Source of the DNA: a virus
DNA length: 64,000 nt
Reading direction: 5' to 3' (one strand)
IMG/VR virus record: IMGVR_UViG_3300033143_000663
Location: 1-64,000 of that record
Under the pieces are notes generated by a model that made no database searches, had not been told where the DNA came from, and saw only the letters and a list, made by a program, of their open reading frames with translations. The translations under genes were made by a program, and so were the position numbers. This document shows, one piece after another, positions 3,443 to 55,663 of the stretch (its first letter is position 1; each line of letters starts with the position of its first letter).

Positions 3443-3973
3443 TTATAAATTACCTTCCAGTTGTTTCTTTTTGTTGTGTGCGTCGCGTCTTGCTTGGCTC
3501 CACGGTTTACCTTTTAAAGTAGCTGAGGCTTTAGCGTACCTACTATCTGGCTTTCTGCCTATATTAGCTTGTCTAATATTTTCTGCATGTTCAGCTGTTT
3601 TTGGTTTGCTGTAGTTCTTTTTATGTTCTTCTGTACGCACTTTACCTGTATTACCTTCTGATATCTTTTGTTTTGCTTGTTCGCTGTGATGCCAGTCTGA
3701 ATTACTTGTTTTTCCGCCTGCACGTAAATTCTCTAATATTCCTGTTCCGTTGCACTTCATTCCGTGTCGTTTAATTAATTTAGTTTCTAAGTTCCAAGCC
3801 TGTTGCTTAGTTAAATCATCAACAACCTGCACATTATCATATCCGGGAAAGGTTACATAAAGATGTTTAGCTTGGATTCGATCTTCCTTACCCATACCAA
3901 TATAGAATGGGTTATTCTCATTTAAGTATGTGTAGACGTAGTATCGTTTATATTCCTGCCAAGCCATTTATAA
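3433..3973. repeat. 16-base near-identical start-codon repeats flanking the homing gene
   Basis: Positions 3433-3448 and 3958-3973 match at 15 of 16 bases; read on the minus strand they are TTATAAATGGC(A/T)TGGC. Each copy contains a start codon: portal (MAWRKY) and endonuclease (MAWQEY). The pair brackets the endonuclease gene as a target duplication would. Confidence 0.6.
3443..3967 (-). CDS. GIY-YIG homing endonuclease with NUMOD3 repeats (Seg-like)
   Basis: Free-standing homing endonuclease of 174 residues. The GIY-YIG domain is at the N-terminus (YYVYTY about residues 9-14, FYIGMG about residues 20-25). After about residue 90 it has NUMOD3-type DNA-binding motifs (HSEQAKQKISEGNTG, EEHKKNYSK, AEHAENIRQANIGRKP), as in T4 SegA-E. 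It sits between the tape-measure gene and the portal gene, abuts the portal start codon, and has a perfect TATAAATA late promoter 19 bases before its own start. Its first codons resemble those of the portal gene, which suggests insertion at the portal start. Confidence 0.9.
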   Translation of the reverse strand: MAWQEYKRYYVYTYLNENNPFYIGMGKEDRIQAKHLYVTFPGYDNVQVVDDLTKQQAWNLETKLIKRHGMKCNGTGILENLRAGGKTSNSDWHHSEQAKQKISEGNTGKVRTEEHKKNYSKPKTAEHAENIRQANIGRKPDSRYAKASATLKGKPWSQARRDAHNKKKQLEGNL

Positions 3974-4018: not shown

Positions 4019-6136
4019 TTACCCCGTATTGGTTTTAATTCCTTTAGCAATATCATTACCTTCAACCTGTTTTGTGGTTAACTTTTCTATTGCTATTCTA
4101 ATTCCATTTAGTTCTCTTTTAAATTGGTCAACTTCAGCACGTTCGCCTGGCATTACTATACCGTCTGCTCTTGCTGCGGCGTCGGCTTGCATCATTTGTG
4201 CTTTTTTAGCTTTAAATGCTTTTTCTAAGTCTGCTCGTCCTGCATTTGGTCTAGCGACTTCCTTAGGACCTGCTGTTACTTCTGCTTGAACAGCTCGCGC
4301 AATTGCTGCCTTAACAGTTGGATCAACATACATGCTAGTTTTGCCGTGTTCTGTTCTTTTTTCAATATCGTTCGCTGCTCTGGCTGCTTTGATTATCTCT
4401 CTAATTTTTTTAGCTTGTGATGGCAGCACCATACCGTCGGCTATACCTAAATCGTTTTCGATGTTATGACGACTCGCCATTGATTCGTTTGCAAACATGT
4501 CATCGACTATATCTTCAACATCAATTGACAATTTATCAACTTGACGTTGCGCGGCTTTAACGTACTCTTGATCTTCATCATCTACTGCGTTTGCTGTGCG
4601 CTCTTTTAAAATTGCAATCGCTCTTTGTAGTTCGTCGCTTTGGCGAGCAACAATGTTGCCTCTTTCACCTTTACCAAGATCGACTCCATATTTCTCAGCA
4701 CCTTCTTTGCCTGCTTTGGCAAATTCTGCGTCGGCTTTTCTTTGTGTTGAAGTTTTCACACCTGCTGCTTTAGCAATTAAATCTGTTGCCATGTTTATTG
4801 TTTCTGCAAATGCCTTCATTGCTTCTGTACCTGCACCAGTGGCTAAAAACATTGCATTCATTCTAGCTGTAACTTCTTGTGTGGTCCGCATAGTAGCTGT
4901 CGCATTTGCGGTTGCTACATCCTTGCCTTCACGTTGAGCTTTTATATTTTCTAAAGCTATTTTTGCTTCTTCTTCAGATATCTCGTGCTTCCTTGCCATG
5001 TTTGATATTTCTGCTTGACTAACAGCAACAGACTGACCTGTTATTTCAGTAACTCGGTTAAATGTCTTTTCGTGTTTCTTTGCAGATCTTATTATAGCGT
5101 TATTAAATTCTCTAAAACTCATTTCGCCAGATCTAAATCGTTCGCGCATTTGAAGTATATCAGCACCCATACCTTGTATTGCTAATTTCTTAGCATCCTC
5201 CCCAACAAAGGTACCACTTGCCATTATCTGTTTAACGCCTGCTCGCATGCCTGGCTCAAGTGAATTAATTGAGTCCATCATTTTAGTTTTTGCTTCTTGA
5301 GTTAGATTTGGTAATTCATTTAACATTGCACGAAACTGGTCGTCAGCCATCATGCGATCACGTTCTTGTTCAATTTGAGATCTTTGCTTACCTGTCAGCT
5401 TTGCAATCATGTCAAGTTCAGATCCATATTTTACTGTGGCTTCTCTTAATTGCTCTGCATCCATTTGACGCATATAACCTATCATTCTCTCACGTTTCTG
5501 GAATTTAATTACAGTGTCACTGATTTCTTCTAAGGTGTAACCTAAGTTTCTAAGGCGATCATCTTCACCTTCTTTCATACTCTTTAATACACCCTGGAAT
5601 ATTTGACCACCTGCTCGAGCAGAACCACTCATGTACGCTAAATCTTCTGAGTTCTTAGTTAATAACTTTGCGTATGTTTGCAATGGCATACCAGCATCAT
5701 CTATTGCCTTTGCTAATCCCGACATACCATCTGCGCCGATTTGACCTGCTGTTGATAACTGTTGGAACGCGTCAAATCCTGCTTGTGTTTGTTGTATTGT
5801 AAATGTTGCTAATTCTTGTGCTGCTTCGCCTAGGCCTTCAATCATACCGCCAACTACTGGTATCTTTCCTAGTAGTCCAGTCATTGCACCTATAACGCCG
5901 TTAACTGCACCTGACAATGCATTAAAGTCACCACTTGATGAACTCATTGCTTTAGTTGAGTCTTTGAACCCTTTGGTTACACCTTTAGTTGCTTTACCAA
6001 GTTCAGTGAGGGACTTACCAGTTTTAGTAGTCTCCATCCACTTTTTAGTTTCAATCTCAATACCTGATTCGCCCAGCCTAGTAGCGTTTTCAAGGTGATC
6101 GATAAGACCTTCTAGTACTTCATTAATATCTGCCAT
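4019..6136 (-). CDS. 29: Tail tape-measure protein (gp29-like)
   Basis: A 705-residue protein that probably sets tail length and threads the tube during assembly. It is largely helical, with a hydrophobic Gly/Ala-rich segment (about residues 75-125, including VNGVIGAMTGLLGKIPVVGG) and long charged helices, the usual tape-measure make-up; T4 gp29 is about 590 residues. It is transcribed away from gp26/gp51, which in T4 are clustered with gp29. The assignment rests on composition and neighbours rather than a conserved catalytic motif, so another helical virion protein is possible. Confidence 0.7.
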   Translation of the reverse strand: MADINEVLEGLIDHLENATRLGESGIEIETKKWMETTKTGKSLTELGKATKGVTKGFKDSTKAMSSSSGDFNALSGAVNGVIGAMTGLLGKIPVVGGMIEGLGEAAQELATFTIQQTQAGFDAFQQLSTAGQIGADGMSGLAKAIDDAGMPLQTYAKLLTKNSEDLAYMSGSARAGGQIFQGVLKSMKEGEDDRLRNLGYTLEEISDTVIKFQKRERMIGYMRQMDAEQLREATVKYGSELDMIAKLTGKQRSQIEQERDRMMADDQFRAMLNELPNLTQEAKTKMMDSINSLEPGMRAGVKQIMASGTFVGEDAKKLAIQGMGADILQMRERFRSGEMSFREFNNAIIRSAKKHEKTFNRVTEITGQSVAVSQAEISNMARKHEISEEEAKIALENIKAQREGKDVATANATATMRTTQEVTARMNAMFLATGAGTEAMKAFAETINMATDLIAKAAGVKTSTQRKADAEFAKAGKEGAEKYGVDLGKGERGNIVARQSDELQRAIAILKERTANAVDDEDQEYVKAAQRQVDKLSIDVEDIVDDMFANESMASRHNIENDLGIADGMVLPSQAKKIREIIKAARAANDIEKRTEHGKTSMYVDPTVKAAIARAVQAEVTAGPKEVARPNAGRADLEKAFKAKKAQMMQADAAARADGIVMPGERAEVDQFKRELNGIRIAIEKLTTKQVEGNDIAKGIKTNTG

Positions 6137-6186: not shown

Positions 6187-7029
6187 ATGTCTGATAATCC
6201 TTTATTACAATATTTCAGAAGTCCAGCAATTCATTTAGAATTACCAAGCAAAGGCGAGTACTATGCTAAGGGTAGTCTTATAATGCCTGAGACTAACGAA
6301 CTCCCAGTACTACCAATGACTGCATTAGATGAGATTACATACAAAACACCAGATGCATTGTTTAATGGATCAGCTATTGTTGATGTTGTTAAGAGTTGTA
6401 TACCAGCTATTGTTGATCCTTGGCAAATGCCAATAACAGATATAACAGCGATATTGTGTGCAATCCGTATTGCAAGCTTCGGACATCAAATGGATATTGA
6501 CACAGTATGTCCAAAGTGTAATAATACTGCTACGTATAGTTTAGATCTAAGAAATATTATTGAAGCAATACAACCACCAGATTATTCCGATCCTATGAAA
6601 ATTGGCGATCTATCATTTTTCTTCAAACCAATGATTTATAAAGATTTAAACGAAAATAATAAATTACAATTTGAAGAAGAGAAGATGTCGCAGATACTTA
6701 CTAATTCTGAAATTGATAAGGCACAACAAATTGCAATGTTGTCTGAAGCTTATAAGAAGGTATCTAAATATACTATTGCAACACTAGCTAAGAATATTAA
6801 AACAATTATCACGCCAGACGCATCTGTTGTAAATGAAGAACACATTTTAGAATTCTTACAGAATTGTGAAAATGATGTGTATAAAAAGATAAAGAAAGAA
6901 ATAATTACTCAAAAAATGTCAGAGGCAATAAAGCCATTACATATTAAATGTGAGGAAGAAGAATGTGGTCACGAATATGATCAACCATTTACTCTTGACA
7001 TGACATCTTTTTTCGCGCAAGGCTCTTAA
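6187..7029 (+). CDS. 26: Baseplate hub protein / tail assembly chaperone gp26
   Basis: T4 gp26-family protein of 280 residues (T4 gp26 is about 208), needed for baseplate hub assembly. The N-terminus (LPSKGEYYAKGSL about residues 19-31, then LPVLPMTALDEI) is the typical family start. Two cysteine pairs, CPKC (108-111) and CEEEEC near residue 260, could form a zinc ribbon. The last codons contain T-TTT-TTC (7008-7014), a canonical -1 slippery heptamer in frame with gp26. A shift there would fuse residues 1-276 to the gp51-like frame. A late promoter is at 6149. Confidence 0.9.
   Translation: MSDNPLLQYFRSPAIHLELPSKGEYYAKGSLIMPETNELPVLPMTALDEITYKTPDALFNGSAIVDVVKSCIPAIVDPWQMPITDITAILCAIRIASFGHQMDIDTVCPKCNNTATYSLDLRNIIEAIQPPDYSDPMKIGDLSFFFKPMIYKDLNENNKLQFEEEKMSQILTNSEIDKAQQIAMLSEAYKKVSKYTIATLAKNIKTIITPDASVVNEEHILEFLQNCENDVYKKIKKEIITQKMSEAIKPLHIKCEEEECGHEYDQPFTLDMTSFFAQGS
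7008..7014 (+). promoter_or_regulatory. Candidate -1 ribosomal frameshift site
   Basis: The heptamer T TTT TTC is in the gp26 reading frame: codons TCT, TTT (7009-7011), TTC (7012-7014). It has the X XXY YYZ form. A -1 slip leads into the downstream gp51-like frame at codon CGC 7014-7016. Confidence 0.6.
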
Positions 7030-7244
7030 TCCTAACCCCTGAAGAAATTTCCAACTTTGTAGATCAACTCGAAAAAGAATCGGATGCAATACGCAGCGAG
7101 TCTCTTAAACTAGCATGGTCTATGCGTGGTGGTGTACAGTACACTGATGTTATGAATATGAGTTTTAACGAACGTGTTATGATTTCAGAAATATCTAAAG
7201 AAAACCTTGACATTACAAAGAAATCCGGCTTACCCTTCTTCTAA
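7014..7244 (+). CDS. 51: gp51-like hub assembly segment, probably made by frameshift from gp26
   Basis: A 76-codon frame in the -1 frame of gp26, ending TAA 7242-7244, that reads LTPEEISNFVDQLEKES and continues to SGLPFF. In T4, gene 51 (hub assembly catalyst) directly follows gene 26, and the position and helical character fit. The frame has no ATG, GTG or TTG before the internal Met of WSMRGG, and an in-frame TGA at 6996-6998 closes it upstream. A -1 shift at 7008-7014 would give a 352-residue gp26-51 fusion. Initiation at a rare codon such as ATC 7029 is the alternative. The protein is far shorter than T4 gp51, so the name is tentative. Confidence 0.6.
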   Translation, partial: RARLLILTPEEISNFVDQLEKESDAIRSESLKLAWSMRGGVQYTDVMNMSFNERVMISEISKENLDITKKSGLPFF

Positions 7245-7662
7245 ACCTAGAAGTTTTAATCAGAATGATGACAATATCCTATTGGAGATCTGCTAACACA
7301 GATCTATTCGTCTGTTTCGCTGTCGCTATACAGACTCATGTATGCTTACGCTTAATTAGATTTATTTGTTTAAGAAAGAATAAATTTATTGTAAGAGCAA
7401 AGAGATATATTTGACTAGAACTAAGAGCCATACTCCACCCGCTAAGGGCGGGCCAAAATAAAAAATTAAATTTTTACTTTTGGAGATTTGTAACTTGACT
7501 GTCACGTTTCACCAATGTTATGTAACGTTAAAACCCTTGTTCTATATTTCATTCCATGACTACATAGATCGCAGTAGCTATACCTATAACACCCACACGA
7601 TAGACAATTATTACTATTAGTAACACGAAGGCGGTCGCCCGCTACCTCCTATGCCCGTCTCT

Positions 7663-7708
7663 CACAACGGAACTCTCCACCCACCTCGTTGTGGTCACCA
7701 GCAGGTGG
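7663..7708 (-). other. H-type pseudoknot candidate
   Basis: Stem 1 pairs 7663-7669 with 7687-7693 (7 bp, CACAACG/CGTTGTG). Stem 2 pairs 7681-7686 with 7703-7708 (6 bp, CCACCT/AGGTGG). The stems cross with no base between 7686 and 7687, so they can stack coaxially. The loops are 11 and 9 bases. Confidence 0.55.
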
Positions 7709-7750
7709 AAAGCCGACAGTTGCATTCTTTTTCAAGCAGAGCTGTCATCT

Positions 7751-7960
7751 TTTAGCCTAAACACTATTTCCCATAATTGATTTCTTTTCACAGTCAAACG
7801 CATTATATGGTAGGCATATCGCATCGTCATCCGTTGGCACGGGTAGTGACTGTTAACTCCGCTATTGCCCGGAGTATTTAGACTACCTTCTCACATCAGG
7901 AAGGGTTCGTCGGCGCAATAAACCGCCCGCGCTAGGGCTTTCAATAGTGTTTAGGCTAAA
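7751..7960. repeat. 18-bp perfect inverted repeat enclosing a folded domain
   Basis: Arms 7751-7768 and 7943-7960 are exact reverse complements and enclose 174 bases. Inside are further pairings: 7790-7796 with 7847-7853, 7842-7847 with 7882-7887 (crossing the former), and a hairpin at 7856-7875. Confidence 0.85.
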
Positions 7961-8159
7961 TCAATAAACTTCCAAAGGGTTCTGTATTATCCCACACCGC
8001 TCTTGGGTGCATTTGACTGGGTGTCTGTTTGTTGTCCTAGAAGTAACACTCCTTCGCGGAGTTTACCACATTTTAAATGTACACTTTTGGGCATCGTACA
8101 TTATTAATGTACGGTCGTTAATAGTGTACAATCAAAGTAAAGTCGGGCTTTACTTGCGA

Positions 8160-8167
8160 TATTTATA
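8160..8167 (-). promoter_or_regulatory. Late promoter TATAAATA pointing into the untranslated region
   Basis: On the minus strand this is the exact T4 late consensus. There is no minus-strand gene within about 900 bases downstream. The expected start, about 6 bases on, lies at the edge of an 8-bp hairpin (8135-8155). Confidence 0.65.
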
Positions 8168-8196
8168 CGCGCCGCTGACGCCTAATAAATAACACT

Positions 8197-8727
8197 ATGC
8201 CTTATATAGAGCTTAAAACAAAGGATATTAAGGTCCTTAAAGAAAAACTCCACAAACAGAATAAAAAGATCTGTCCTTTACTTGGCGTACCTGTACCCTT
8301 AGATAAAACAGCTTTAGATCATATACATAAACTAAAGTCTGAACCTTATGCAGAAGATAAAGGTACTATTCGTAATGCTATCGAATTCCGTGCTAACGCA
8401 ATGGAAGGTAAGATAACAAATAACTGGAAGCGATACTTCGGTGCTGATGTATCTAAGCACCCAACCGATCTCCCATCATTCTTACGCAACCTAGCTGACT
8501 ACTTAGAAGCTGGCGCGTACTCTGAGGATGGCGATTACTATATCCACCCTAGTGAGGTACCCAAGGTACCAAAAATTAAAAAATCATCTTATAACAAAAT
8601 GATTAAGCTCTTCAAAGTAAAGTATCCTAAGAAGAAAGTTCCTGCTTATCCAAAATCTAGAAAACTAACAAAACTTATGGATAAACTGTTTACTGAATTT
8701 AGCATAACTGATATCTATTACAGTTAA
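8197..8727 (+). CDS. 49: Recombination endonuclease VII (gp49-like)
   Basis: Holliday-junction resolvase that debranches replicated phage DNA before packaging. The 176-residue length is close to T4 gp49 (157). The HNH-type core is visible: LDHIHK (about residues 47-52), then GTIRNAIEFRANAMEGKITNNWKRYFG (about 66-93), with the Asp-His and Asn expected of the active site. T4 endonuclease VII binds zinc through four cysteines; here I see only one (ICPLLG), so the zinc site seems to be missing. The C-terminus is Lys-rich. Its stop codon abuts the stop of the convergent radical SAM gene, with no spacer. Confidence 0.85.
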   Translation: MPYIELKTKDIKVLKEKLHKQNKKICPLLGVPVPLDKTALDHIHKLKSEPYAEDKGTIRNAIEFRANAMEGKITNNWKRYFGADVSKHPTDLPSFLRNLADYLEAGAYSEDGDYYIHPSEVPKVPKIKKSSYNKMIKLFKVKYPKKKVPAYPKSRKLTKLMDKLFTEFSITDIYYS

Positions 8728-25877: not shown

Positions 25878-28800
25878 ATGGCAAGAATTCGCAGTGTAGA
25901 TTTTCTACCAGAAATCTTTCAGACACAAACTAACAGAAAGTTTCTAAACTCAACTCTTGATCAATTGATCCAAGAACCAAAGTTAAAACAAACTCAAGGT
26001 TATATTGGCCGAGTGAATGCTCCGGGTAAGTTAGCAACCGACGGTTATATTGACGAACCAACAGATAGAAGAACTAATTATCAGCTTGAACCTGGTGTTA
26101 TATTCAAAGACGAAAACGGTGATATTGTTGACGCTTTAACATACATGGGGCTCTTAGATGGTCTTGCTACTAAAGGTGCTAACGTAGAAAATCATGATCG
26201 CTTATTCAGTTCAGAAACGTACAGCTGGTCACCATTTATTGAATTTGATAAGTTTGTAAACTATAGTCAATACTTTTGGTTACCTGACGGTCCAGACAGT
26301 GTTAACGTTGCAGCATCTAGCGTTTTATTAACAAACGACTTTGACATTACTGCAAATGCAAACACATTCTCAATTGAAGGATTCAATATTGAAAATCCTG
26401 TAATTACAGTATTACGTGGCGGCTCATATAATTTTAATGTTAATCAATCTGGCAGCCCTTTCTATATTCAAACACACCCGGGCGTTGAAGGCACTGTGCC
26501 GTGGGCAAGTAATATAAGCAGTAGAGAAATCGTTGGAGTTTCAAACAACGGCGATGACGATGGAACAATTCAATTTAATGTTCCTGTTAGTGATGCACAG
26601 AGTTTTTATCATGATTTAGTAGACATAGGTAATGTTGATTTAGCAACAGACCAGCGCATGGATTCAATTGCCGATCAATTACTTGATGATGTAAGTGACA
26701 TTGCCGGCATACAGAATATTGATAACAAGACTATTATTTTCTTAGATGATACACCTGGCGACGCAGTCGACTTAGGTTGGGTCAATGATGGGTTACCGTT
26801 AACTAATCAAGCAGACAGATACCAAATTTTTAGAATTTTTCTCGAAGATGTACTTGGTGACATTTATATTAGATTAATTCCACATCAATCAATTACTATT
26901 TTTGAAAGGTTCACAATATTGTACGGTGATTTATATAGTAACGTAAGTATCTTTAAAGATTCAGATGGATATTTCGAACAAGTGCCACTTGAAACAGCAT
27001 CGCTTGATACGTTATATTATCAAGACGCAACTAATCCAAATCGATTTGGCGTTATTAATGTAGTTGATAATGAATCAGCTGCAACACTAGATATATCTAG
27101 TATAGTTGGTAGACCAACATACACAAGTCCAAATGGTGTAACATTTACTAACGGGTTAAAGGTACAGTTCCGTGGAGAAATAACACCCGCGGAGTATTCA
27201 GATAATGAATACTACGTAGAAGGGGTTGGTACATCTATTCGATTGGTATTAATAGCCGACTTAAAAGTACCAGAAACGTATGCTACGAGTTTTACAACTC
27301 CGTGGGATATAGGTCCATGGGATACAGATGCAGTAGACGGAACTCTAAATGCACCAACTGACTTAGATTACATTACTATTAACAGGTCTAGCCTAGATAA
27401 AAACGCATGGTCTAGAAGCAACAGATGGTTCCATATCGACGTTATTACAGCCACAGCAGAATATAATCAAACTGTAGTAGACCTTGATAATGACAACAGA
27501 GCATCGCGACCAATTATTGAATTTGATGCAGACTTGCGCTTATTTAATTATGGTACGTACGGCAAGCAACTTATTGATATTATCGACTTTGTTGTAACTG
27601 ACGCATTGTCAGATGTTAACGGATCGCTAGGTTATATAGTTGATGGGTACCAGTTAGCCAGCGGCACACGTATTATATTTGCCAACGATTCAGACCCAAC
27701 AGTCAGCGACAAAATTTATACAGTTGAATTAATTGACGTTAATGACAACGGAATCGAAACATTAAACTTAGTATTAGCAGAGGATAGTGATAGCGAAGAA
27801 AATGATATAGTTACAGTACTAAATGGACTTACACAACAAGGCACAGTGTTTACATATAATGGTTCACAGTGGGTCGAGTCACAAGATAAAGCGTCTGTTA
27901 ACCAAGCACCATTATTTGATATATTTGATGCTGATGGCATTTCGTTTGGTGATTTTAGTTCTTATCCAAGTACTACTTTTGCAGGCACTAAATTATTCAG
28001 TTATGCTGAAGGTACAGGGTTGAACGATGCGGTACTTGGCTTCCCGCTAAGGTACTTGAACATCGACAATTTAGGCGATATAGTATTTGAGAACAATCTG
28101 TACACAGACACGTTCTTGTATGTATTGGATAACGTGTCTAATGACAATAGCCCAATAAGCGATGGCTTTGCTAGAAAATATTATACTCGTTACGAATACA
28201 CAAACGAAATTGGGTGGATTAAATCAATTGAGGATTCGCGTCAAGCCCAGGTATTTGATGCTGTTTATACCGGTGAACCAATAACATTGGATATTGTTCC
28301 AGTTACTGACTTATTAATTCCGTCAGTAAGGATCACTGCCAATGGTACCTTTGTTGCTCCAGACGAATATACAGTAACTGATAATGTTATTACATTCCTT
28401 AATACTATTCCAGCAGATGCAGAGTTGCAGATCAAAGCAATTAGCGACGACATAAGCGAAACTGCTTACTATGAGATTCCAACTAATCTATCAAGTAATA
28501 TGTTCAATGAAAATACATCGTTATTAACACTTGGTACGGTTCGTAATCACTATAACAACTTAGCACAAAACATACCAGAAGTTCAAGGCATCATTAATGG
28601 TGCAAACAATTTACGTGACCTAGGCGACATAAGCAAGTACGGTAACTTTATTATACAACAATCATCACCGGTTGCACTAGCGGCTATGTTTATGCGATTT
28701 AAAGAATACAACTTTTTTAGTTCAGTTACTTTTGCCTCACGCCAATACGAGAAGTTTAAGAACCAGATAATTGATTGGGTTGAGAAGCACGATGTATTTG

Positions 28801-31800
28801 AAATGTCACCGGGCGAGATACTTGATGCTGCAATTAAAGATATTAACACTAGCAAGAATATCAATAGTGCATTTTATTGGAGTGATATGTTACCATCGGG
28901 ATCAGACTACGAAAGTACTGAATATGTGGTAACAGCAATTAGTACAGGAACGTTCACCACTCTTAATACATACGATTTCTTAAATGCCAATACTCAAGCA
29001 TTGTTAGTATACTACAATAATACACTATTAATAAAGGATATTGATTATACTGTGGCAACAGATGGCCCACGTATTACAGTATTACTTGACCTTGTCCCAG
29101 ATGATGTCATAATAATTAATGAATATAGTACAACACTCGGCACGACAGTACCGAGTACACCAACTAAGTTGGGATTGTTTCCAAAATACAAACCAATGAT
29201 ATTTACAGATGATACCTATGCTACACCTGTTGATGTTGTTCGTGGCCACGACGGTAGTATTGTTGTAGCACACGGCGATATCCGCGACGAGGTATTACTA
29301 GAATTTGAGAAACGTGTTTATAACAACATTAAAGTAAATGACTTGATACCAATCGAACCATCAGATATTATTCCTGGTGCGTTTCGAGAAACAGATTATA
29401 CGGATCAAGAAATTCTTGAGATACTTTCACCTAGCCTATTGTCTTGGTTGGGCTGGAACAGAATTGATTACAAAAAACAAGATTATAATCAAGCAGAAGA
29501 AAAGACATGGAACTATAGTTCTTCAACCGATAAACTAACCAATGCTACAATTACAAAAGGTAACTGGCGCGGAATTTACATTGACTATTACGACACAGAC
29601 GCACCACATGCCCGTCCATGGGAAATGGTTGGCTTAGCCGAGCGCCCTGTGTGGTGGGTACTGCGTTATGGCCCGGGTCCATACACAAGTGGTAACTTAG
29701 TGTTATGGGATGACATGGAAGCTGGATTAATTAAAGAACCAGGCAACGAACGTGTAGTTGAAAAATACAAACGTCCAGGACTAACATCAATTTTACCAGT
29801 AGACGGTGAAGGCAACTTAGTAATGCCCCTTGCTTCTGTTATAGCAGGTTATTCAGCTTACGATTTTAGGAAGTCATGGAAGGCAAGCGATGTTGCACCG
29901 GCTGAAGCGGCATGGAGAAAGTCAAGTGCATGGCCATTTGCAATGCAAACGTTATACTCATTGACTAAACCAGCTGAATACTTTGCACAAATGTCGGATC
30001 GAGACCGTTACGTTTATGATACAACCTCAGAGCAATATCTATATGATGGTCGTAGTAGGATTGATGTACGTAACATTGAATTATTAGATGAAAATACAGT
30101 TAAACATAGCTATATAAACTGGGTAATTGATTACAACAAACACTTTGGATATGAAAGTCTTGATAAACTTAAAATGGATTTATCAAAACTTGACGTAAAC
30201 TTATGCCACCACATGGCATCGTTTACAGATAAAAACAATTTAAGAATCTTTACAGATAAGAGTAGTCCAGATAGCACAAATAATAGCTTATTATTGCCAG
30301 ACGAAAGCTACAAATTATTATTGTATAAGAGCCAACCACTTGATGAAATTATATACTCATCAATTATTGTACAGAAGGTATCCGATGGCTATGCAGTAAC
30401 TGGTAACAGTTTTACAGACCCTTATTTCAAAACACAAACTTCAGTTGACACCGGTCTATTTGATAACATTAAGGTTGGCAGGGATGATAATACATCTTCA
30501 TCTGTCAGAGTTCCAAAAGACTTTAAGGACACTGTAGAATATATTCCATATGGTCATGTGTTTACTAGCAAACAAGCGGTTAGCGAATTTATTGTAAGTT
30601 ACAACGAATACTTAATACGCGCAGGATTGAAGTTCAACTTAGTTGACGATTCACAATTAGTTAATTGGACGCAGATGGTACAAGAGTTCTTGTACTGGGC
30701 AGACCAGGGCTGGGCTGTTGGCAGCATAGTTAACCTTAACCCAGCAGCTACTGAATTAGAATTTGAACGCGAGTTGCACATTGTTGATGATTTAAATAAC
30801 TTAGAACTAACTGAGCAACCACTAAACCAAAATAGAGAACCGCTAGATATTAGTGATTACGTAGTTGATCGTATCGACAATAACTTTAAGATCAGAATGA
30901 TTGATGACAACATTATTAGTTACTTAAAATTCAACTTAACTAGTTTCGAACATTTATTGATACTAGACAACACCAGCATATTTAACGATCTGATTTATGA
31001 TCCAGTTACAAGTGTTAGACAAGATCGTGTTAAACTTTCTGGCTTCACAACATTTGAATGGAACGGCCAGCTAGATGCACAAGGCTTCTTATATAACGAA
31101 GACAACGTTCAGTCTTGGGTGCAGGTAAGCACCTATAACAAAGGCGATATTGTTAAGTTTAAGAACTCGTACTGGAGCGCGTCGGAAAAAGTACAACCGT
31201 CGGAAACATTTGACTACGGGCAATGGGTAAAAACAGACTACAGTAGCATCAACAAAGGTCTATTGCCTAACTTGGCAACAAAGTCAGATCAGATGCTTGA
31301 TTACTATAATAATAAAACTGCAAACTTAGAAAACGATGTTGATTTAATGGCATTTGGTTTAACTGGTTTCCGTTCTAGAGATTACTTGCGTTCATTAGAC
31401 TTAGATGATATTAGTCAAATTAATATCTACAGCGATATGATCGAGAACAAGGGTACAGTTGATAGCTTAAACTTATTTAAAAATGCAGAGCTAAACAACG
31501 AATTGGTTGATTATAATATCTTTGAAAACTGGGCGATCAAACGTGCCAGTTATGGTGCTACTAGTAGCCGCTCGTACATTGAATTACAACTTGATGAAGA
31601 CGTTCTTACAACAAACCCAAGTCTTGTAGAAATTGTTGATTCGTTATCAGACGAGTCACTTAGTGATTTGTTGATTCCAGTTGCTGACATTTATAAGCAA
31701 AGTGAAAAGAACACAAATAAAAATATATTTCCTATTAGGCATGATACAAACTTAGATACCGCACTACCGACTGCCGGGGCTGTAAATCTAGATGACGTGG

Positions 31801-34800
31801 ACCTTGCTGTTTTTGATATAGCAGATATAGATGTTGCCACTGACATTGTTGAAGGTAACTTAATATGGGTAGCGAGAGATACTGAAACTGACTGGAACGT
31901 ATATCGTGCTATTAGATTAGAGCCAACTGTAATTGATGTTAACGATAATCTTGATGGAACGTTAACGGTTGTAACTGATATTCCACACAATCTAAACGTT
32001 GGTGAGACTATTGTTATTAATGAATTTGATGAATTAGTTGACGGTACTCACAAGGTATTAGATATATCCGATTCGATTAACATTGTAATAGCAGGCGAAC
32101 TTGCAAAGAATCAAACGTGTATACTAGATGGCAGCGGAACATTGCTACACTTTTCATCAGCCCGTGTTGGCGTGCCAAGTGATATTGCAGGTTCTGTTTT
32201 TGATAACAACATTCACACATCTGAAACAGTTTGGGTTGGGTCAGAAGGACATCACCCTGTAACATACAAGAAAACAAGACCATTTGCATTAAGCAACTCG
32301 AAGATTAACCCAACTAATTCAACAACAGAGTTTGGACAAAGCATATCACAAGGATACGCAGATGCTGGATTACTAGTAGGAGATCCTGCAAACGCCAATG
32401 GTATTGTACACTTATTCAATAAGGTTGGCGCCAGCGATTATTTTTGGAAACTAACATTAACGCTAAACGGTCATCCAGACGTGTTACGTTATGGTAATGA
32501 TGTAGCATTAATAGAATCATGGGGCGCGATTGCAGCACCAGGCGATGCAACTACTCCGGGTCTTGTTGCAATAGTTAGTAGAAACAAACAATTAGATCTA
32601 ATTCTCGAAACGCAGATACTTGTTAGCCCATCTATATCAGCAGGTGCAGGCGACAGTTTTGGTTCAAGTATTGCAATGAGCAGAGATGAGAATTGGATAC
32701 TTGTTGGGGAACCAGATAACAACAAAGTTCACGCATATCAGAAAACAGAATATGAAATACAACAAGTTTCACACATAGCAGATGGTGCAACAACAGTATT
32801 TAAAATATCAGATGATATTATAGTTGCCACCGCTGATCAAGTCAACGTAACAATCGATGGTACATTATTACCAGATGGTTTACTAGGTGATTATACCCTA
32901 GTAGGTGACGACATTATATTAGATACATTACCAGATGCAGGTGCCGAGGTTATTATTGTACGAAAGAACTGGGTGACGCACGATGGCGATGGAACTACCG
33001 GACCATTTTCGGCAGCTAATTTATATGCGCGTAGTGTAATAGATTCTATTGTTGTTAAGATTAACGGAGTAATACAACGTCCGGTAGTTGACTATACGTT
33101 TGATGGAACTGATGTAACATTTACATCTGTGACACCAGTTGGCACTGATAACATTGCAATCAGTCTAGCAACAACATTTAGATTTGTTAATACAATTGAT
33201 GATAGCATTGATGGTATTACATTATCCGCCAGCGACCAATTTGGCGCTGAGATTGACATAACCGAAAATGGTAGTCATATTGTTATTACTGCGCCTGGTA
33301 CTGATACAGATACTGGTAACGCATACATTGTTGATAGGGTTGTTGAGCGTCATGTGATAAGTGATGCAAATGATTTAACATACTCATCTATTAGAACGCC
33401 AACTGGATCTGCGTTTAATAATACTACACAATTATCTAAGTCAGGATTTAATGCCGCGCCCGACTATAGCATTGTAGGTAACGATTTAACATTGCTTAAC
33501 GCAGGCACTATTAAAGTTGGTGACTTCTTAGATATTGACACCACTGAGTTTAAATTAATACAAGAGGTCGCAGCAGAGACACCAGCAGTTGGCGCAACAT
33601 TCGGTAACGCTGTAACTATTTGTAAATCAAAATGTTCAGTTTACTTTGGCGCTGAAAATGACTTAGATGGTCAGGGCAGCGTTACACGTTATATTAATAG
33701 TTCACGCATGTTTGGATATATTACAAGCACTACACAAAATCCAATGATACTAGCTGGTAGTTCTATTCGTATAGATAATATTGAAATTCCATTATCTGCA
33801 ACTAGTATAATATTATCAGAAGATATTGTTGCAGGAATAACTTATACTATTGTTACAGCAGGTACAACAGACTTTACATTGCTTGGTGCAGAAGATAGCA
33901 ACCCAGGCACAACATTTACATCAAATGGCAATATTGCCGCCGGAACAGGCACTGCTCAGAGTTCATCGACAGAAATTGCAGATGCTATTAATGCAGTGAC
34001 AATTCCAAATGTTACTGCGTCAGCCAAGAACGGCATGGTAACGATTGAATTGATTAACAAACAGATTCAATCACTTGCTAATAAGCTAGATGTATTGCCG
34101 GGCGAGATTGTATCGTTAGCAGACTTAGGACTAGAATCGTATTACATTGGACAGACTATTACAAGTCCAACAGAAACTACACAAGCACAAAACTTTGGTA
34201 GTTCGTTGCACATTGACTTTAATTTAAATCAATTAATAGTTGGCGCTGTAAATGGCGATGCTATAACTATCGCAACACCAGTTGATCAAGATACAACGTT
34301 TGATTCGACTGTAATAACAATGGATAATGCATCTAACGTATACGGTAGCGGCATTGTTTATTCATATGATTTATTAAATGATGGCGACGTATTTACTGGC
34401 GGCAAATTAGCATTCGGACAACAGATTGTTGACAATAATGATATTGCCGCAGGCGACAGCTTTGGCACCGCAGTTAATTTAGTTGATGGTTTGCTAGTTG
34501 TTAGCTCAACTGATCATAATTCAGGCATTGGACGTATTGTTATATTTGGCAATGCAACTAATTCACTTAGCTGGCAAGTACTAAGTGCCCAGCATGATAC
34601 AGTCGATGTTGACTTAATTAATTCAATATACATTTACAGTACTGATACAATGAATGTGTCGCGATACTTAGATTATATTGATCCACTCAGTGGAAAGATA
34701 CTTGGCGCAGCAAATCAAAATATTGATTTTACTACAGTGTATGATCCAGCAGTGTACGCCGATACAAGCGTAGGACTGCTTTGGGGTAGTAATCAAGTTG

Positions 34801-37793
34801 GTAGAATTTGGTGGGACGTTACGGCTGTTCGTTTCATGGATTATAATATTGGCGATGCGAAGCAAGCCAGCAAATTATGGGGTAAAGTATTTAACGGTAG
34901 CTCAATCGATGTATATCAATGGATTGAAAGTACTGTTCCACCAGCTGAATATGCTGGCTCTGGAATAGTATTAGATACAACTAAATTTATTACAATTTCT
35001 AACATTAATAATGCAGGCACAATCAAAAATACTTACTATTATTGGGTTAACGGTGTTGAAACAATTAGTGTTAATTCAGAAAAGACATTAAGTGCGAGTG
35101 CAATTGCATCGTACATTGAATCACCAGCTAGTTCAGGTATATCGTATGCGGCTATTATAGCACCAAACATAATTGGTTTATATAATTGCAAAGATATTAT
35201 TCAAAACAATGATACTGTTTTATATGTTGAATATGACAAGATTAAGAATGATAGTAACGTGTTCGTTGAGTACGACTTATTCCGTGAAAATCATCCAATT
35301 GATTTCTTGTCAGATGGCCTGTATAAGAAGTTACAAGATAGTTTCTGCGGAGTTGACACACTAGGTAATTTGGTTCCTGACGTGGGATTAAGTTTTGCTG
35401 ACAGATTCGGCATTGACTTCCGTCCACGTAAGTCAATGTTTGTTGATAAATTTGCAGCATTAACAACTTACATGAAGAAAGTAAACACTATACTTAGTCA
35501 ACATACTATTGCAGAATCACAACCGTATACATTGCTTAACAGCGAAGAACCAACGCCAACCTTAGCGTCAGGCGAGTGGGACCAGAGTGTTTCTAATAAT
35601 GAAGAATTGTCATTCCAGGACTTAGCAACCATTCCAGCAGGATTTACTTACCTAGTAGAATCTGACGATACCAGCAATGGCTTGTGGACCACATACGAAG
35701 TCACTCCAGAAAAAACATTACAATTAAAACGTGTACAAAGTTACGACACCAAGCGTTTCTGGAATCTTGAACACTGGTATGCAGAGGGATTTGACCCGTT
35801 AACTAAAATAGATTATGTTGTCAATGCGTTTACTGAATTGTCTACATTAAATGGCATCGAAAACAATGCCATTGCAAGGGTAGTTAATAACAGCGTTGGT
35901 AATTGGGAAATACACCGATACATCGATGGTAATTGGAATAGAGTGGGCCTTGAAAATGGTACTATCCAATTTGAAGAAAGACTGTGGGATTATTCAGTTG
36001 GTCGTTACGGCTGGGACGTTGAGGTCTTTGACGCACAAAACTTAGATGAAGAACCAGTTATTGAATTGCGTCAGATTATCAAATCAATTAACGAAGAATT
36101 GCTAATAGATGATTTATCAGTTGAACGTAGCAAGGCACTTATGAGTGTATTCAACTATATATTATCAGAACAACCACATGTTGATTGGTTATATAAAACA
36201 AGTTTAATTGATGTAACACAACGAGTACGTGGCTTGTCGCAATATGCTGTTTATCAGAAAGATAATCAAGATTACCTAAAGGACTATATTAAAGAATCTA
36301 AACCGTACCACACTAAAGTTAAAGATTTCTTATTAAGTTATGATGGTATTGATTATATTGATGGCCAAGTTACAGACTTTGATTGTCCATCAGTATATAG
36401 TGCAGATTTCGATCAGTACATTAGTCCTATCTTAGATGATGGAGCAACACTTATTACTGATCCAAGTAACAAGTTAGCCACTGACATAGTGTGGCAGACA
36501 GAACCATGGAAACAATGGTTTGCCAACTATCGGTTAAGCGTGGAAGATGTAGTAATTACTAATCCAGGTACCGGTTACACTGTAGCACCTACTATTGTAG
36601 TCACAGGCTCAAGTTTACTCCCAGCGGTAATGACCGCAAGGGTAGGCGAAGGTGGTTCGATTGCTGAAATTGTTATTGAAGACCCGGGTAGCGGATATAT
36701 AGACACACCGGTTATTACATTTGAAGGCGGTAACGGCGAAGATGCAACGGCATTAGCAGTAATGAATAACAAGCTAGTGCGAACATTCAATACCGGAATC
36801 AAATACGACAGATATGAATACCAAACAAATATTGTTACGTGGGAAGCAGACACAGCGTATGCAGCCGATCAACTTGTTAAGGTTAATAATGCTGTATATA
36901 AAATTATAGATGCAGATCCAGCCGCAACATTTAATCCTGCCCTACATGAGTTAATTAACATCGACTCACTTAGCGGCATCGATCGTACAGCGGGATTTTA
37001 TGTTGCAGACGTTAATAGTCCAGGCCTAGATTTATCATTGCTTATTAAAGGCATTGCATACCCGGGCGTTGAAGTAGATGGTGTTGGGTTCGACCAGAAT
37101 ACCGGATTTGACTTATCACCATTTGACACAACGACATTTGATAACTTTGACATCGGTCCAGAGGGATTCCCTACATACAGTGAAACTTTAATTGATACTA
37201 TATATGAGAGTTCATTCCTGGCTACGTACCTCGGTACACGCCCAATTGATATTAATGTAGACGGTGGCGAGTTTATTGACACGTACCATTCACATGCTCC
37301 AGAAGAGTTAGTGCCAGGCGCCATTTTTGATACGCTTGATATTAAGGTGTTTACAGACGATGGTATAACCTTTAGATTATTTAAAGACATGCGCGATACA
37401 GTTGGAATGTATAAAATGAACAATTCAACAACTAGTTTAGTGCAGGATCTTGCAGACACAGACGATATCATTTATGTCGATGATGCTAGTGTGCTAGGCG
37501 AACCAGATCTAGATATTGCGAAATTTGGTATATTAATGGTTAACGGTGAGCGCATTACATATCGTGAACGCGACTTATTAAACAATACAGTAAGCGGTTT
37601 ACGTCGTGGTACAGCGGGCACAGGCATAGCGCCACTTCATGTAGCAACAGACGTGGTATACGATGTGAGTTCTGAGAGTTTTGTACAGTGGGATTACAAT
37701 AGAATCTGGTACGCACCAGGCGCAGGCACAGCAAGTGATGGCATTACATTGAACGATCAAACCACAAGCCCAGCACTGTTTATTAAAAGTTAG
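25878..37793 (+). CDS. 7: Giant baseplate wedge initiator-type protein (gp7 position)
   Basis: A single 3971-residue frame directly after gp6, the gp7 slot; T4 gp7 is 1032 residues. The N-terminus (about residues 1-140: RIRSVDFLPEIFQTQTNRKFL, LEPGVIF, DKFVNYSQYFWLPDGPDS) matches what I recall of gp7 proteins of marine T4-like phages. About residues 2150-2890 contain at least six FG-GAP-like repeats (for example GDSFGSSIAMSRDENWILVG, DQFGAEIDITENGSHIVIT, GDSFGTAVNLVDGLLVVSS), which suggests a beta-propeller. Near 3560-3620 are two NPGTGY/DPGSGY repeats. The C-terminus reads FGILMVNGERITYRERD and ends with a Gly-rich tail. The propeller may bind a receptor or brace the baseplate. No internal stop was seen. 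Confidence 0.85.
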   Translation: MARIRSVDFLPEIFQTQTNRKFLNSTLDQLIQEPKLKQTQGYIGRVNAPGKLATDGYIDEPTDRRTNYQLEPGVIFKDENGDIVDALTYMGLLDGLATKGANVENHDRLFSSETYSWSPFIEFDKFVNYSQYFWLPDGPDSVNVAASSVLLTNDFDITANANTFSIEGFNIENPVITVLRGGSYNFNVNQSGSPFYIQTHPGVEGTVPWASNISSREIVGVSNNGDDDGTIQFNVPVSDAQSFYHDLVDIGNVDLATDQRMDSIADQLLDDVSDIAGIQNIDNKTIIFLDDTPGDAVDLGWVNDGLPLTNQADRYQIFRIFLEDVLGDIYIRLIPHQSITIFERFTILYGDLYSNVSIFKDSDGYFEQVPLETASLDTLYYQDATNPNRFGVINVVDNESAATLDISSIVGRPTYTSPNGVTFTNGLKVQFRGEITPAEYSDNEYYVEGVGTSIRLVLIADLKVPETYATSFTTPWDIGPWDTDAVDGTLNAPTDLDYITINRSSLDKNAWSRSNRWFHIDVITATAEYNQTVVDLDNDNRASRPIIEFDADLRLFNYGTYGKQLIDIIDFVVTDALSDVNGSLGYIVDGYQLASGTRIIFANDSDPTVSDKIYTVELIDVNDNGIETLNLVLAEDSDSEENDIVTVLNGLTQQGTVFTYNGSQWVESQDKASVNQAPLFDIFDADGISFGDFSSYPSTTFAGTKLFSYAEGTGLNDAVLGFPLRYLNIDNLGDIVFENNLYTDTFLYVLDNVSNDNSPISDGFARKYYTRYEYTNEIGWIKSIEDSRQAQVFDAVYTGEPITLDIVPVTDLLIPSVRITANGTFVAPDEYTVTDNVITFLNTIPADAELQIKAISDDISETAYYEIPTNLSSNMFNENTSLLTLGTVRNHYNNLAQNIPEVQGIINGANNLRDLGDISKYGNFIIQQSSPVALAAMFMRFKEYNFFSSVTFASRQYEKFKNQIIDWVEKHDVFEMSPGEILDAAIKDINTSKNINSAFYWSDMLPSGSDYESTEYVVTAISTGTFTTLNTYDFLNANTQALLVYYNNTLLIKDIDYTVATDGPRITVLLDLVPDDVIIINEYSTTLGTTVPSTPTKLGLFPKYKPMIFTDDTYATPVDVVRGHDGSIVVAHGDIRDEVLLEFEKRVYNNIKVNDLIPIEPSDIIPGAFRETDYTDQEILEILSPSLLSWLGWNRIDYKKQDYNQAEEKTWNYSSSTDKLTNATITKGNWRGIYIDYYDTDAPHARPWEMVGLAERPVWWVLRYGPGPYTSGNLVLWDDMEAGLIKEPGNERVVEKYKRPGLTSILPVDGEGNLVMPLASVIAGYSAYDFRKSWKASDVAPAEAAWRKSSAWPFAMQTLYSLTKPAEYFAQMSDRDRYVYDTTSEQYLYDGRSRIDVRNIELLDENTVKHSYINWVIDYNKHFGYESLDKLKMDLSKLDVNLCHHMASFTDKNNLRIFTDKSSPDSTNNSLLLPDESYKLLLYKSQPLDEIIYSSIIVQKVSDGYAVTGNSFTDPYFKTQTSVDTGLFDNIKVGRDDNTSSSVRVPKDFKDTVEYIPYGHVFTSKQAVSEFIVSYNEYLIRAGLKFNLVDDSQLVNWTQMVQEFLYWADQGWAVGSIVNLNPAATELEFERELHIVDDLNNLELTEQPLNQNREPLDISDYVVDRIDNNFKIRMIDDNIISYLKFNLTSFEHLLILDNTSIFNDLIYDPVTSVRQDRVKLSGFTTFEWNGQLDAQGFLYNEDNVQSWVQVSTYNKGDIVKFKNSYWSASEKVQPSETFDYGQWVKTDYSSINKGLLPNLATKSDQMLDYYNNKTANLENDVDLMAFGLTGFRSRDYLRSLDLDDISQINIYSDMIENKGTVDSLNLFKNAELNNELVDYNIFENWAIKRASYGATSSRSYIELQLDEDVLTTNPSLVEIVDSLSDESLSDLLIPVADIYKQSEKNTNKNIFPIRHDTNLDTALPTAGAVNLDDVDLAVFDIADIDVATDIVEGNLIWVARDTETDWNVYRAIRLEPTVIDVNDNLDGTLTVVTDIPHNLNVGETIVINEFDELVDGTHKVLDISDSINIVIAGELAKNQTCILDGSGTLLHFSSARVGVPSDIAGSVFDNNIHTSETVWVGSEGHHPVTYKKTRPFALSNSKINPTNSTTEFGQSISQGYADAGLLVGDPANANGIVHLFNKVGASDYFWKLTLTLNGHPDVLRYGNDVALIESWGAIAAPGDATTPGLVAIVSRNKQLDLILETQILVSPSISAGAGDSFGSSIAMSRDENWILVGEPDNNKVHAYQKTEYEIQQVSHIADGATTVFKISDDIIVATADQVNVTIDGTLLPDGLLGDYTLVGDDIILDTLPDAGAEVIIVRKNWVTHDGDGTTGPFSAANLYARSVIDSIVVKINGVIQRPVVDYTFDGTDVTFTSVTPVGTDNIAISLATTFRFVNTIDDSIDGITLSASDQFGAEIDITENGSHIVITAPGTDTDTGNAYIVDRVVERHVISDANDLTYSSIRTPTGSAFNNTTQLSKSGFNAAPDYSIVGNDLTLLNAGTIKVGDFLDIDTTEFKLIQEVAAETPAVGATFGNAVTICKSKCSVYFGAENDLDGQGSVTRYINSSRMFGYITSTTQNPMILAGSSIRIDNIEIPLSATSIILSEDIVAGITYTIVTAGTTDFTLLGAEDSNPGTTFTSNGNIAAGTGTAQSSSTEIADAINAVTIPNVTASAKNGMVTIELINKQIQSLANKLDVLPGEIVSLADLGLESYYIGQTITSPTETTQAQNFGSSLHIDFNLNQLIVGAVNGDAITIATPVDQDTTFDSTVITMDNASNVYGSGIVYSYDLLNDGDVFTGGKLAFGQQIVDNNDIAAGDSFGTAVNLVDGLLVVSSTDHNSGIGRIVIFGNATNSLSWQVLSAQHDTVDVDLINSIYIYSTDTMNVSRYLDYIDPLSGKILGAANQNIDFTTVYDPAVYADTSVGLLWGSNQVGRIWWDVTAVRFMDYNIGDAKQASKLWGKVFNGSSIDVYQWIESTVPPAEYAGSGIVLDTTKFITISNINNAGTIKNTYYYWVNGVETISVNSEKTLSASAIASYIESPASSGISYAAIIAPNIIGLYNCKDIIQNNDTVLYVEYDKIKNDSNVFVEYDLFRENHPIDFLSDGLYKKLQDSFCGVDTLGNLVPDVGLSFADRFGIDFRPRKSMFVDKFAALTTYMKKVNTILSQHTIAESQPYTLLNSEEPTPTLASGEWDQSVSNNEELSFQDLATIPAGFTYLVESDDTSNGLWTTYEVTPEKTLQLKRVQSYDTKRFWNLEHWYAEGFDPLTKIDYVVNAFTELSTLNGIENNAIARVVNNSVGNWEIHRYIDGNWNRVGLENGTIQFEERLWDYSVGRYGWDVEVFDAQNLDEEPVIELRQIIKSINEELLIDDLSVERSKALMSVFNYILSEQPHVDWLYKTSLIDVTQRVRGLSQYAVYQKDNQDYLKDYIKESKPYHTKVKDFLLSYDGIDYIDGQVTDFDCPSVYSADFDQYISPILDDGATLITDPSNKLATDIVWQTEPWKQWFANYRLSVEDVVITNPGTGYTVAPTIVVTGSSLLPAVMTARVGEGGSIAEIVIEDPGSGYIDTPVITFEGGNGEDATALAVMNNKLVRTFNTGIKYDRYEYQTNIVTWEADTAYAADQLVKVNNAVYKIIDADPAATFNPALHELINIDSLSGIDRTAGFYVADVNSPGLDLSLLIKGIAYPGVEVDGVGFDQNTGFDLSPFDTTTFDNFDIGPEGFPTYSETLIDTIYESSFLATYLGTRPIDINVDGGEFIDTYHSHAPEELVPGAIFDTLDIKVFTDDGITFRLFKDMRDTVGMYKMNNSTTSLVQDLADTDDIIYVDDASVLGEPDLDIAKFGILMVNGERITYRERDLLNNTVSGLRRGTAGTGIAPLHVATDVVYDVSSESFVQWDYNRIWYAPGAGTASDGITLNDQTTSPALFIKS
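33840..33880 (+). repeat. 41-base module shared with the adhesin gene at 43737-43777
   Basis: This stretch of the giant gene is identical, base for base, to 43737-43777 and encodes TYTIVTAGTTDFTL. The flanking codons diverge quickly, so this looks like an exchanged protein module. Confidence 0.85.
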
Positions 37794-46722: not shown

Positions 46723-47638
46723 TTCAATAGACATAGCAGACTTAGACGTAGTTTATCTAAGTTACGATGAACCACAGAAAGAAGAGTTCTGGGTTAGGAT
46801 TAAAAATATGGTTCCGTGGGCCGTTAGAGTAGACGGTGTTAAGGGTAGCGATGCAGCGCATAAAGCCGCCGCAGACGCAAGTGAAACAGATAGATTTATT
46901 TTGATTGATGGTGACAACTTGCCCGACTTGGACTTCTTTAACTTAACACTTGATTTTAAAGATGCAGATTATGAAAAGGCTGTATTCCGTTGGAGAGCAC
47001 GTAACCACATCAATGGGTTGATGTACGGCAATGGTGGTATTAGTTGTTGGACTAAAGACTTTATATATAATATGAAAACACACGAAGCAAGTGTAGGTAG
47101 TGATGACACCGATGTGGAGTTTTGTTTTGATCCATTGTATTGGGCGATGCATGATTGTTATAGTACGACATATCCAAATGGTAGCAAGTTCCATGCATGG
47201 CGCGCAGGGTTTAGAGAAGGCGTTAAGATGTGCTTGAACCAGGGTAAGAAACCTACAATCGGAGAGTTTAAAGATAGCGTACATAAACGTAACATGGCCC
47301 ATTTAAGTATTTGGCATAACATAGGTAGTGATGAGGAATACGGCTCATGGGCAATTCTTGGTGCGCGTATGGGTACACATATGACAATGTTAACAGACTG
47401 GAATTATAAAGAAGTACAGTGGTTCGACAACCTGGCAGAAATTTACAAGCAGGTGCATGATGTACCAGCACAAATTCAAGCATTAGGTGTAGAGCTCGAA
47501 ACACAATTAGATTTACCTATGCTGTCACCTAGTGCTGAGCATAGCAAGTTCTTTAAAGATCACTATCGTTCTAATTGGCACAATAAAGGTGTAATGGTAC
47601 GTGAAATTGATGTAATACGTAACCTAGAAGGTTGGTAA
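46715..47638 (+). CDS. Glycosyltransferase-like protein 3
   Basis: A 307-residue protein. Residues about 5-75 (DLDVVYLSYDEPQKEEFWVR, VPWAVRVDGVKGSDAAHKAAA, TDRFILIDGDNLPDLDFF) look like a nucleotide-sugar domain with DGD at the metal site. The middle has a conserved-looking KAVFRWRARNHINGLMYGNGG. The second half of the large protein at 59381 has a similar sequence of motifs. It may act on the product of the radical SAM enzymes that follow; TAATG couples it to the first of them. Confidence 0.6.
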   Translation: MIDSIDIADLDVVYLSYDEPQKEEFWVRIKNMVPWAVRVDGVKGSDAAHKAAADASETDRFILIDGDNLPDLDFFNLTLDFKDADYEKAVFRWRARNHINGLMYGNGGISCWTKDFIYNMKTHEASVGSDDTDVEFCFDPLYWAMHDCYSTTYPNGSKFHAWRAGFREGVKMCLNQGKKPTIGEFKDSVHKRNMAHLSIWHNIGSDEEYGSWAILGARMGTHMTMLTDWNYKEVQWFDNLAEIYKQVHDVPAQIQALGVELETQLDLPMLSPSAEHSKFFKDHYRSNWHNKGVMVREIDVIRNLEGW

Positions 47639-49011
47639 TGAGTAAGAGTAAGTTTTTGTCTGACGCAGAAAAGATGAAGGAGAAACTAGACTCTGTTAGT
47701 CCTTCGATGTGTCTTGCAAAATGGAAACAGGTGTCCTTGCATTTGACTACAGGGTTGAATAACTCGTGCTACCATCCACCATTACATACAATAGATGTCG
47801 CCGCAATTAAAAAAGACCCAAGTGCATTACATAACACAGAGTTAAAGAACAACATACGTAAGCAAATGATAGAAGGTATTCGTCCAGCAGAGTGTAGCTA
47901 TTGTTGGGCAATGGAAGATAATGGAAAGCTGAGTGATCGTCACTACAGAAGTGGCGAACCGTGGGCAGCAAAAGACTTTGACGCTATAGTTGCAAACCCA
48001 TATGCCGATGTTAACCCTTCATATGTGGAGGTTAACTTTAACCATGCATGTAACTTGGCGTGTTCTTATTGCTCCCCTCAGTTTTCCACTACTTGGATGA
48101 AGGAAGTTAAGAAGCACGGTGCGTACCCTACAGCACAACCACACAACGATCCTGCGTACTTTACTAGCATCAGACGCCCAATACCTAACCGCGAAGATAA
48201 TCCATACGTTGATGCATTTTGGGAGTGGTGGCCAGAACTATATAAAGAACTTGTACATTTTAGAATGACAGGTGGCGAACCACTTATGGATAAGAATACA
48301 TACAAGGTATTTGATTATGTATTAGCAAACCCAAAGCCCGATTTGCATTTAAATGTAACAAGTAATTTGTCTGTAGACCAAAAACTATGGGACAAGTACA
48401 TGGGCTATGTTAAGCAATTAACAACAGGTAAGATCGAACACTTTATGCAGTACGTAAGTGTTGACACTTGGGGCGAACAAGCTGAGTACATACGCCACGG
48501 ATTAGACTTCAATTTGCTTCTTGAACGTGTAGAGGAATTTCTAACAGAGATACCTAGTTACAGTAGCATCACGTTTATTATTACAATGAACAATCTATCC
48601 ATACATAACCTCAGACAGTTAATGATGAACATATTACACTTGAGAAGAAAGTATAGTAAGGACTTCCAGCGTGTCTGGTTTGATACTCCTGTGCTACGTA
48701 CACCAGAATGGCAGAGTATGCAAATACTTCCAGAGCACTTTGTTAGTAGGTTAGAAGATGCGAAACAATACATGCTAGACAACATGGAAACAGAAGACAA
48801 TCGTTTCCACGGGTTTAAAGACTATGAAGTACAGCGCATGGACAGAGACATTGCGTGGATGAAACAAGGAACAGACAACCTAGAACAAAAGAAGGCAGAC
48901 TTCTATCGCTTCTTTAACGAAGCGGACAGACGTCACAATACAAACTTTTTATTAACGTTCCCTGAGCTAACTGCATTTTGGAACGAGTGCAAATATTATG
49001 CAAACAAATAA
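47638..49011 (+). CDS. Radical SAM protein 1 of the tandem array
   Basis: A 457-residue radical SAM enzyme. An N-terminal cysteine segment (SMCLAKWKQVSLHL, then SCYHPP) precedes the cluster motif CNLACSYC (Cys138, 142, 145), and MTGGEPLMDKNTY gives the SAM-binding GGEP motif. CSYCW around residue 83 adds further cysteines. I chose the ATG at 47638 (TAATG overlap) instead of the TTG at 47632. It is close in layout to array member 3 (50464). Substrate unknown. Confidence 0.88.
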   Translation: MSKSKFLSDAEKMKEKLDSVSPSMCLAKWKQVSLHLTTGLNNSCYHPPLHTIDVAAIKKDPSALHNTELKNNIRKQMIEGIRPAECSYCWAMEDNGKLSDRHYRSGEPWAAKDFDAIVANPYADVNPSYVEVNFNHACNLACSYCSPQFSTTWMKEVKKHGAYPTAQPHNDPAYFTSIRRPIPNREDNPYVDAFWEWWPELYKELVHFRMTGGEPLMDKNTYKVFDYVLANPKPDLHLNVTSNLSVDQKLWDKYMGYVKQLTTGKIEHFMQYVSVDTWGEQAEYIRHGLDFNLLLERVEEFLTEIPSYSSITFIITMNNLSIHNLRQLMMNILHLRRKYSKDFQRVWFDTPVLRTPEWQSMQILPEHFVSRLEDAKQYMLDNMETEDNRFHGFKDYEVQRMDRDIAWMKQGTDNLEQKKADFYRFFNEADRRHNTNFLLTFPELTAFWNECKYYANK

Positions 49012-50462: not shown

Positions 50463-50463
50463 A

Positions 50464-52078: not shown

Positions 52079-52079
52079 C

Positions 52080-55595: not shown

Positions 55596-55663
55596 TAAAC
55601 GACTTTTTAGAGTATGCGAATAAGGAAGGATATGACCAAAACCAGCAGCCGCTAGTTGATGTT

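Follow-up and report, generated by a model that had tools for sequence, protein, structure and literature searches.

A probable programmed −1 ribosomal frameshift site joins gp26-like and gp51-like coding sequences in T4-related phages

The 3′ end of the gp26-like gene in a T4-related virus that infects bacteria is very probably a programmed −1 ribosomal frameshift site, from which short and long forms of a putative tail assembly chaperone would be made. We analyzed positions 1 to 64,000 of IMG/VR record IMGVR_UViG_3300033143_000663 (the window, 64,000 nucleotides in full). Strong comparative evidence argues that the site is functional; it is real, deeply conserved and mis-annotated in public records.

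The gp26-like gene (6187–7029, plus strand, 280 amino acids) matches the T4_baseplate family PF12322 (E 4.7e-15) and the baseplate hub family phrog_150 (E 1.2e-17). Its 3′ end reads ...TLDMTSFFAQGS-stop, and the two phenylalanine codons form the heptamer T_TTT_TTC at 7008–7014 (plus strand), in the register that tandem −1 slippage requires. The zero-frame TAA (7027–7029) ends 15 nt past the heptamer. On the same strand, the −1 frame is open from a TGA at 6996–6998 to a TAA at 7242–7244, so that the extension (7014–7244) comprises 76 codons after the slip plus the stop. The joined product has 352 residues (...DMTSFF-RARLLILTPEE..., junction TSFF-RAR). The first-pass annotation had reported the TGA closure, the in-phase T TTT TTC and the length of the fusion, and all of these details are correct on direct reading. 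It had also stated that the gp51-like frame has no ATG, GTG or TTG before its conserved start; the earliest is at 7122, mid-way through the conserved part (W-S-M-R-G-G). Among 46 window ORFs (20,052 codons), T_TTT_TTY occurs in frame three times, and the copy at 7008–7014 is the one at a gene 3′ end. A zero-phase heptamer within an ORF overlap, with the second ORF in the −1 frame, places the site in the X_XXY_YYZ class. Searches of the window for Rfam families and tRNAs returned no match.

The simplest reading is that two Phe-tRNAs slip back in tandem by one base on the ribosome. Most ribosomes would pass T_TTT_TTC without slipping and terminate at 7029, which yields the 280-residue short form. 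A minority would slip one base back, with both Phe-tRNAs exchanging their pairing with TTT TTC for TTT TTT, and would continue to 7241 to produce the 352-residue long form with a gp51-type C-terminal domain. The T4 literature (PMC3004832) and an analogy with lambda gpG/gpGT (PMC5009743) suggest roles for both: the short form is probably a chaperone that coats the tape measure protein, and recruitment of tail tube or hub proteins is probably the role of the rare long form. In T4, the same two forms come from the paralogous genes 26 and 51.

How widespread is this arrangement? The first 19 loci compared (the window, two other viral contigs and sixteen phage records) represent very different T4-related jumbo phages. 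All have a run of T in frame, 71–90 codons in the −1 frame and an FFR..LL-type junction, with the variants FFQ in one locus (L006) and FFY in another (L011), and the gp26 stop ends 6–36 nt past the heptamer. The same layout occurs in cyanophages Bellamy and S-SRM01 and in phage XacN1. With four scans of viral contigs, the comparison grew to ~157 non-redundant relatives (jumbo phages, cyanophages and viral contigs), a number that may include a few near-duplicates, given a crude redundancy filter based on position-wise identity. The slip site was not selected for by these scans, because their peptide patterns were drawn from the N-terminal part and the middle of gp26.

The heptamer is in the same register in 152 of the ~157 relatives (T_TTT_TTC in 149, T_TTT_TTT in three). 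In every one of the 152, a −1 ORF extends beyond the gp26 stop, a few being cut by contig ends; it is mostly 55–75 codons long, vs ~7 codons for the +1 frame. Elsewhere in the same genes, an in-frame heptamer occurs at one of 39,308 positions, and T_TTT_TTY encodes just one of 91 other FF dipeptides. The codon preceding TTT at the site always ends in T, while encoding nine different residues. The first-pass annotation had proposed a survey for relatives that lost the heptamer while both frames stayed intact; among the ~157 we found none, as all 152 intact −1 frames keep the slippery run. Comparison of the relatives thus supports its interpretation of a gp26–gp51 −1 frameshift. The five relatives without the heptamer lack a long −1 ORF and have a long +1 ORF.

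These five (L197, L200, L201, L202 and L205) are divergent gp26 relatives. By eye, a gp51-like extension is recognizable in the +1 (or −2) frame in three of them (L200, 2280–2534; L201, 3476–3973; L205, 3689–3871). Two, L200 and L201, carry a T7 run (TTT TTT TGG), which suggests a different kind of shift that leads to the same product.

Protein coding in the −1 frame begins immediately after the slip. In the jumbo group, conservation just after the slip is 0.49, 0.82 and 0.23 bits at first, second and third codon positions of the −1 frame, and the values are 0.47, 0.80 and 0.33 in the 38 loci whose first 12 codons after the slip include no start codon; the third position is lowest in both. The first −1 residue after FF is arginine in 144 of the 152 relatives, and the zero-frame residue at that place varies (A, G, V, E, D or others).

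Could the extension instead be a small independent gene, with initiation at a start codon of its own or by translational coupling to gp26 termination? Most public annotations of the records examined do list it as a separate small CDS. In 18 of 152 relatives, the gp26 stop overlaps with an ATG, so some relatives may also make the extension alone. We nevertheless regard a separate gene as very unlikely to account for the locus. The first available start in the window lies inside the conserved domain, and annotated starts, where present, are mostly downstream of the conserved FFR..LL residues. ATG, GTG and TTG are missing from the first 12 post-slip codons in 38 of the 152 relatives, and from the entire extension in two (L006 and L148). 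The first-pass annotation had asked whether relatives have a clear start codon and ribosome site for gp51; a start within 12 codons of the slip combined with any upstream Shine-Dalgarno-like match was found in only nine of 152. An independent gene would also leave the invariant register of the heptamer unexplained.

Slippage could in principle take place during transcription rather than translation, as RNA polymerase adding one T on the T6 run would yield an identical peptide, which makes the two mechanisms indistinguishable at the protein level. The nucleotide pattern makes this most unlikely. The run has exactly six T in 149 of 152 relatives and seven in three, which is short for polymerase slippage, and the register at the site is always T_TTT_TTC-type. 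The polymerase-suited arrangement N_TTT_TTT (N not T) is used for 28 of the 91 other FF dipeptides in these genes, yet never at the site. Finally, a chance T run beside a gene in decay, or a single frame split by a sequencing error, would explain the split frame itself and nothing beyond it, and is excluded by the recurrence of the same split, heptamer and frames in ~150 sequences from isolates and metagenomes.

Ribosomal frameshifting thus remains the preferred reading, and we looked for elements that might stimulate it. No consistent stimulator, either downstream folding or an upstream Shine-Dalgarno sequence, was found across the 152 relatives. Mean z-scores for downstream folding are about −0.8 in the jumbo group and −1.4 in the cyanophages, and a Shine-Dalgarno-like site upstream of the slip occurs in only 64 of the 152.

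The relationship to T4 clarifies what the extension is. T4 gp26 matches PF12322 with an E value of 8.8e-64. T4 gp51, which is commonly regarded as a hub assembly catalyst in its own right, matches the same family over residues 1–201 (E 3.9e-52), and is therefore a gp26 paralogue with ~48 extra C-terminal residues. As a single T4 sequence compared with the fusion profile gave too weak a signal, we used a T4-type gp51 family profile built from six proteins. The jumbo fusion profile (43–348) aligns with this profile (16–253) at E 5.5e-8 and a probability of 95%, and the cyanophage fusion profile (13–300) aligns with it (7–255) at E 2.8e-13 and a probability of 98%. Both alignments run through the junction; therefore, the extension is best read as the C-terminal part of gp51, and the fusion as the equivalent of the whole of T4 gp51. 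The gp51 label given by the first-pass annotation was thus apt, in that the −1 product aligns with the C-terminal extension that sets T4 gp51 apart from gp26. Comparison of the extension alone between cyanophages and jumbo phages gives a weaker match (33 columns, E 2.8e-5). The window's own extension has no useful match in Pfam or PHROG, and the extension of the enterobacterial jumbo group matches phrog_18291, a small family of unknown function.

Genes 26 and 51 are separate and divergent in five T4-type phages (T4, SFHK24, Aeromonas phage 31, phiP4-3 and KARL-1). T_TTT_TTY is absent from the gp26 genes of these five and from six T4-type gp51 genes (RB43 included); where a dedicated gene encodes the long form, no slip site is present. 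This distribution of the heptamer, together with the homology, suggests that a short form (gp26) and a long form (gp26-51) would be made by frameshifting here and from two genes in T4.

AlphaFold2 predicts both parts with high confidence (pLDDT 92.6 for the short protein and 90.9 for the extension), and the extension, which is represented in an alignment of 55 sequences, is predicted to be a helical hairpin. The best matches of the short-form model are predicted viral baseplate hub assembly proteins. When the short-form and extension models were compared with PDB folds, no convincing match to solved structures was found, tail assembly chaperones included.

The gp26-like gene is flanked by a divergently oriented gene (4019–6136, minus strand) for a 705-amino-acid virion structural protein of family phrog_14121. 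Members of this family also adjoin gp26 in 121Q and GAP32, and the annotation of the RaK2 neighbor notes similarity to a tape measure protein. Only by position and this one record's annotation is the 705-amino-acid protein tape-measure-like. In cyanophages, the ORF downstream of the extension has a weak match to tape measure families. An ORF of the window (3443–3967, minus strand), located between the portal and tape-measure-like genes, resembles a GIY-YIG homing endonuclease by eye and has no Pfam match at E 0.01.

On the other side, ~950 bases without a convincing ORF (7245–8196) separate the extension from an endonuclease VII-like gene (8197–8727; PF02945, below cut-off). This gap contains an 18-bp perfect inverted repeat (7751–7768 and 7943–7960), and the region from 7640 to 8000 folds unusually well (z −3.5) and has no Rfam match. 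Several relatives have a comparable gap of 700–850 bases at the same place. Further along, a 3971-codon ORF that adjoins baseplate genes (25878–37793) has weak matches to an FG-GAP repeat and a carbohydrate-binding module. Several CxxxCxxC proteins in a run, followed by a carbamoyltransferase (PF16861/PF02543), are encoded at 47632–58702, unusual cargo beside phage structural genes; the one CxxxCxxC protein tested has a radical SAM match (E 3.8e-6) below the curated cut-off.

An evolutionary scenario that we consider evenly balanced between right and wrong, taken as a whole, is that the T_TTT_TTC −1 frameshift is ancestral for the gp26/gp51 pair throughout cyanophages and T4-related jumbo phages, that gene duplication plus in-frame fusion took its place in the T4 branch, where the site was later lost, and that the extension came to lie in the +1 (or −2) frame in a few divergent phages. 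Sullivan et al. 2010 (PMC3037559) described the gp51 of cyanophages as only ~20% as long as usual, which the frameshift explains. Under the same scenario, this ‘truncated’ gp51 would be an annotation artefact. Public annotations of the T4-related jumbo phages and cyanophages examined lack this conserved, predicted fusion protein. Cultured relatives (121Q, RaK2, GAP32 and PA5oct-like phages) make the predictions directly testable.

PMC3004832 places T4 gp26 and gp51 among the hub assembly chaperones. Tail assembly chaperone genes of T4-like phages were the subject of a 2022 publication (Vladimirov et al., Virology 566:9–15), so the first-pass annotation's suggestion that its finding would newly link the T4 26/51 pair to frameshifted chaperones does not hold. 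As represented in two papers that cite that study, some T4-like phages carry a short gene plus a separate fused long gene (the PRFect paper, PMC10885494), and poly-T −1 signals occur in T4-like TAC-N genes (the Adele paper, PMC12846349). As far as these accounts describe it, the reported tail-assembly-chaperone scheme matches the layout in the window. A literature search that covered few subscription journals found no paper describing a gp26–gp51 frameshift in jumbo phages or cyanophages.

A known parallel is lambda gpG/gpGT, a programmed −1 frameshift (Xu, Hendrix and Duda 2004; reviewed in PMC5009743). Unlike in lambda, the heptamer here is T_TTT_TTC rather than the lambda site, and the tape-measure-like gene is divergent. 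In Vandenendeviridae and Andersonviridae, a TAC −1 frameshift at GTTTTT (Adele, PMC12846349) likewise lies in poly-T at the end of the TAC-N gene, and the downstream ORF was likewise long annotated as a separate hypothetical protein; the phage families and slip motif differ, however. Cyanophage gp51 (phrog_634) is encoded in Bellamy and S-SRM01 with the same T_TTT_TTC and −1 arrangement, although the extension is shorter (~59–66 codons after the slip) and the next downstream gene is on the same strand. With T4 itself the likeness is one of homologous short and long forms, the fusion aligning with gp51 through the junction, and the difference is that the T4 long form is encoded, without the heptamer, by a separate and divergently oriented paralogous gene. 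Two routes to a short and a long tail chaperone, frameshifting and gene duplication, would thereby be linked within one homologous family.
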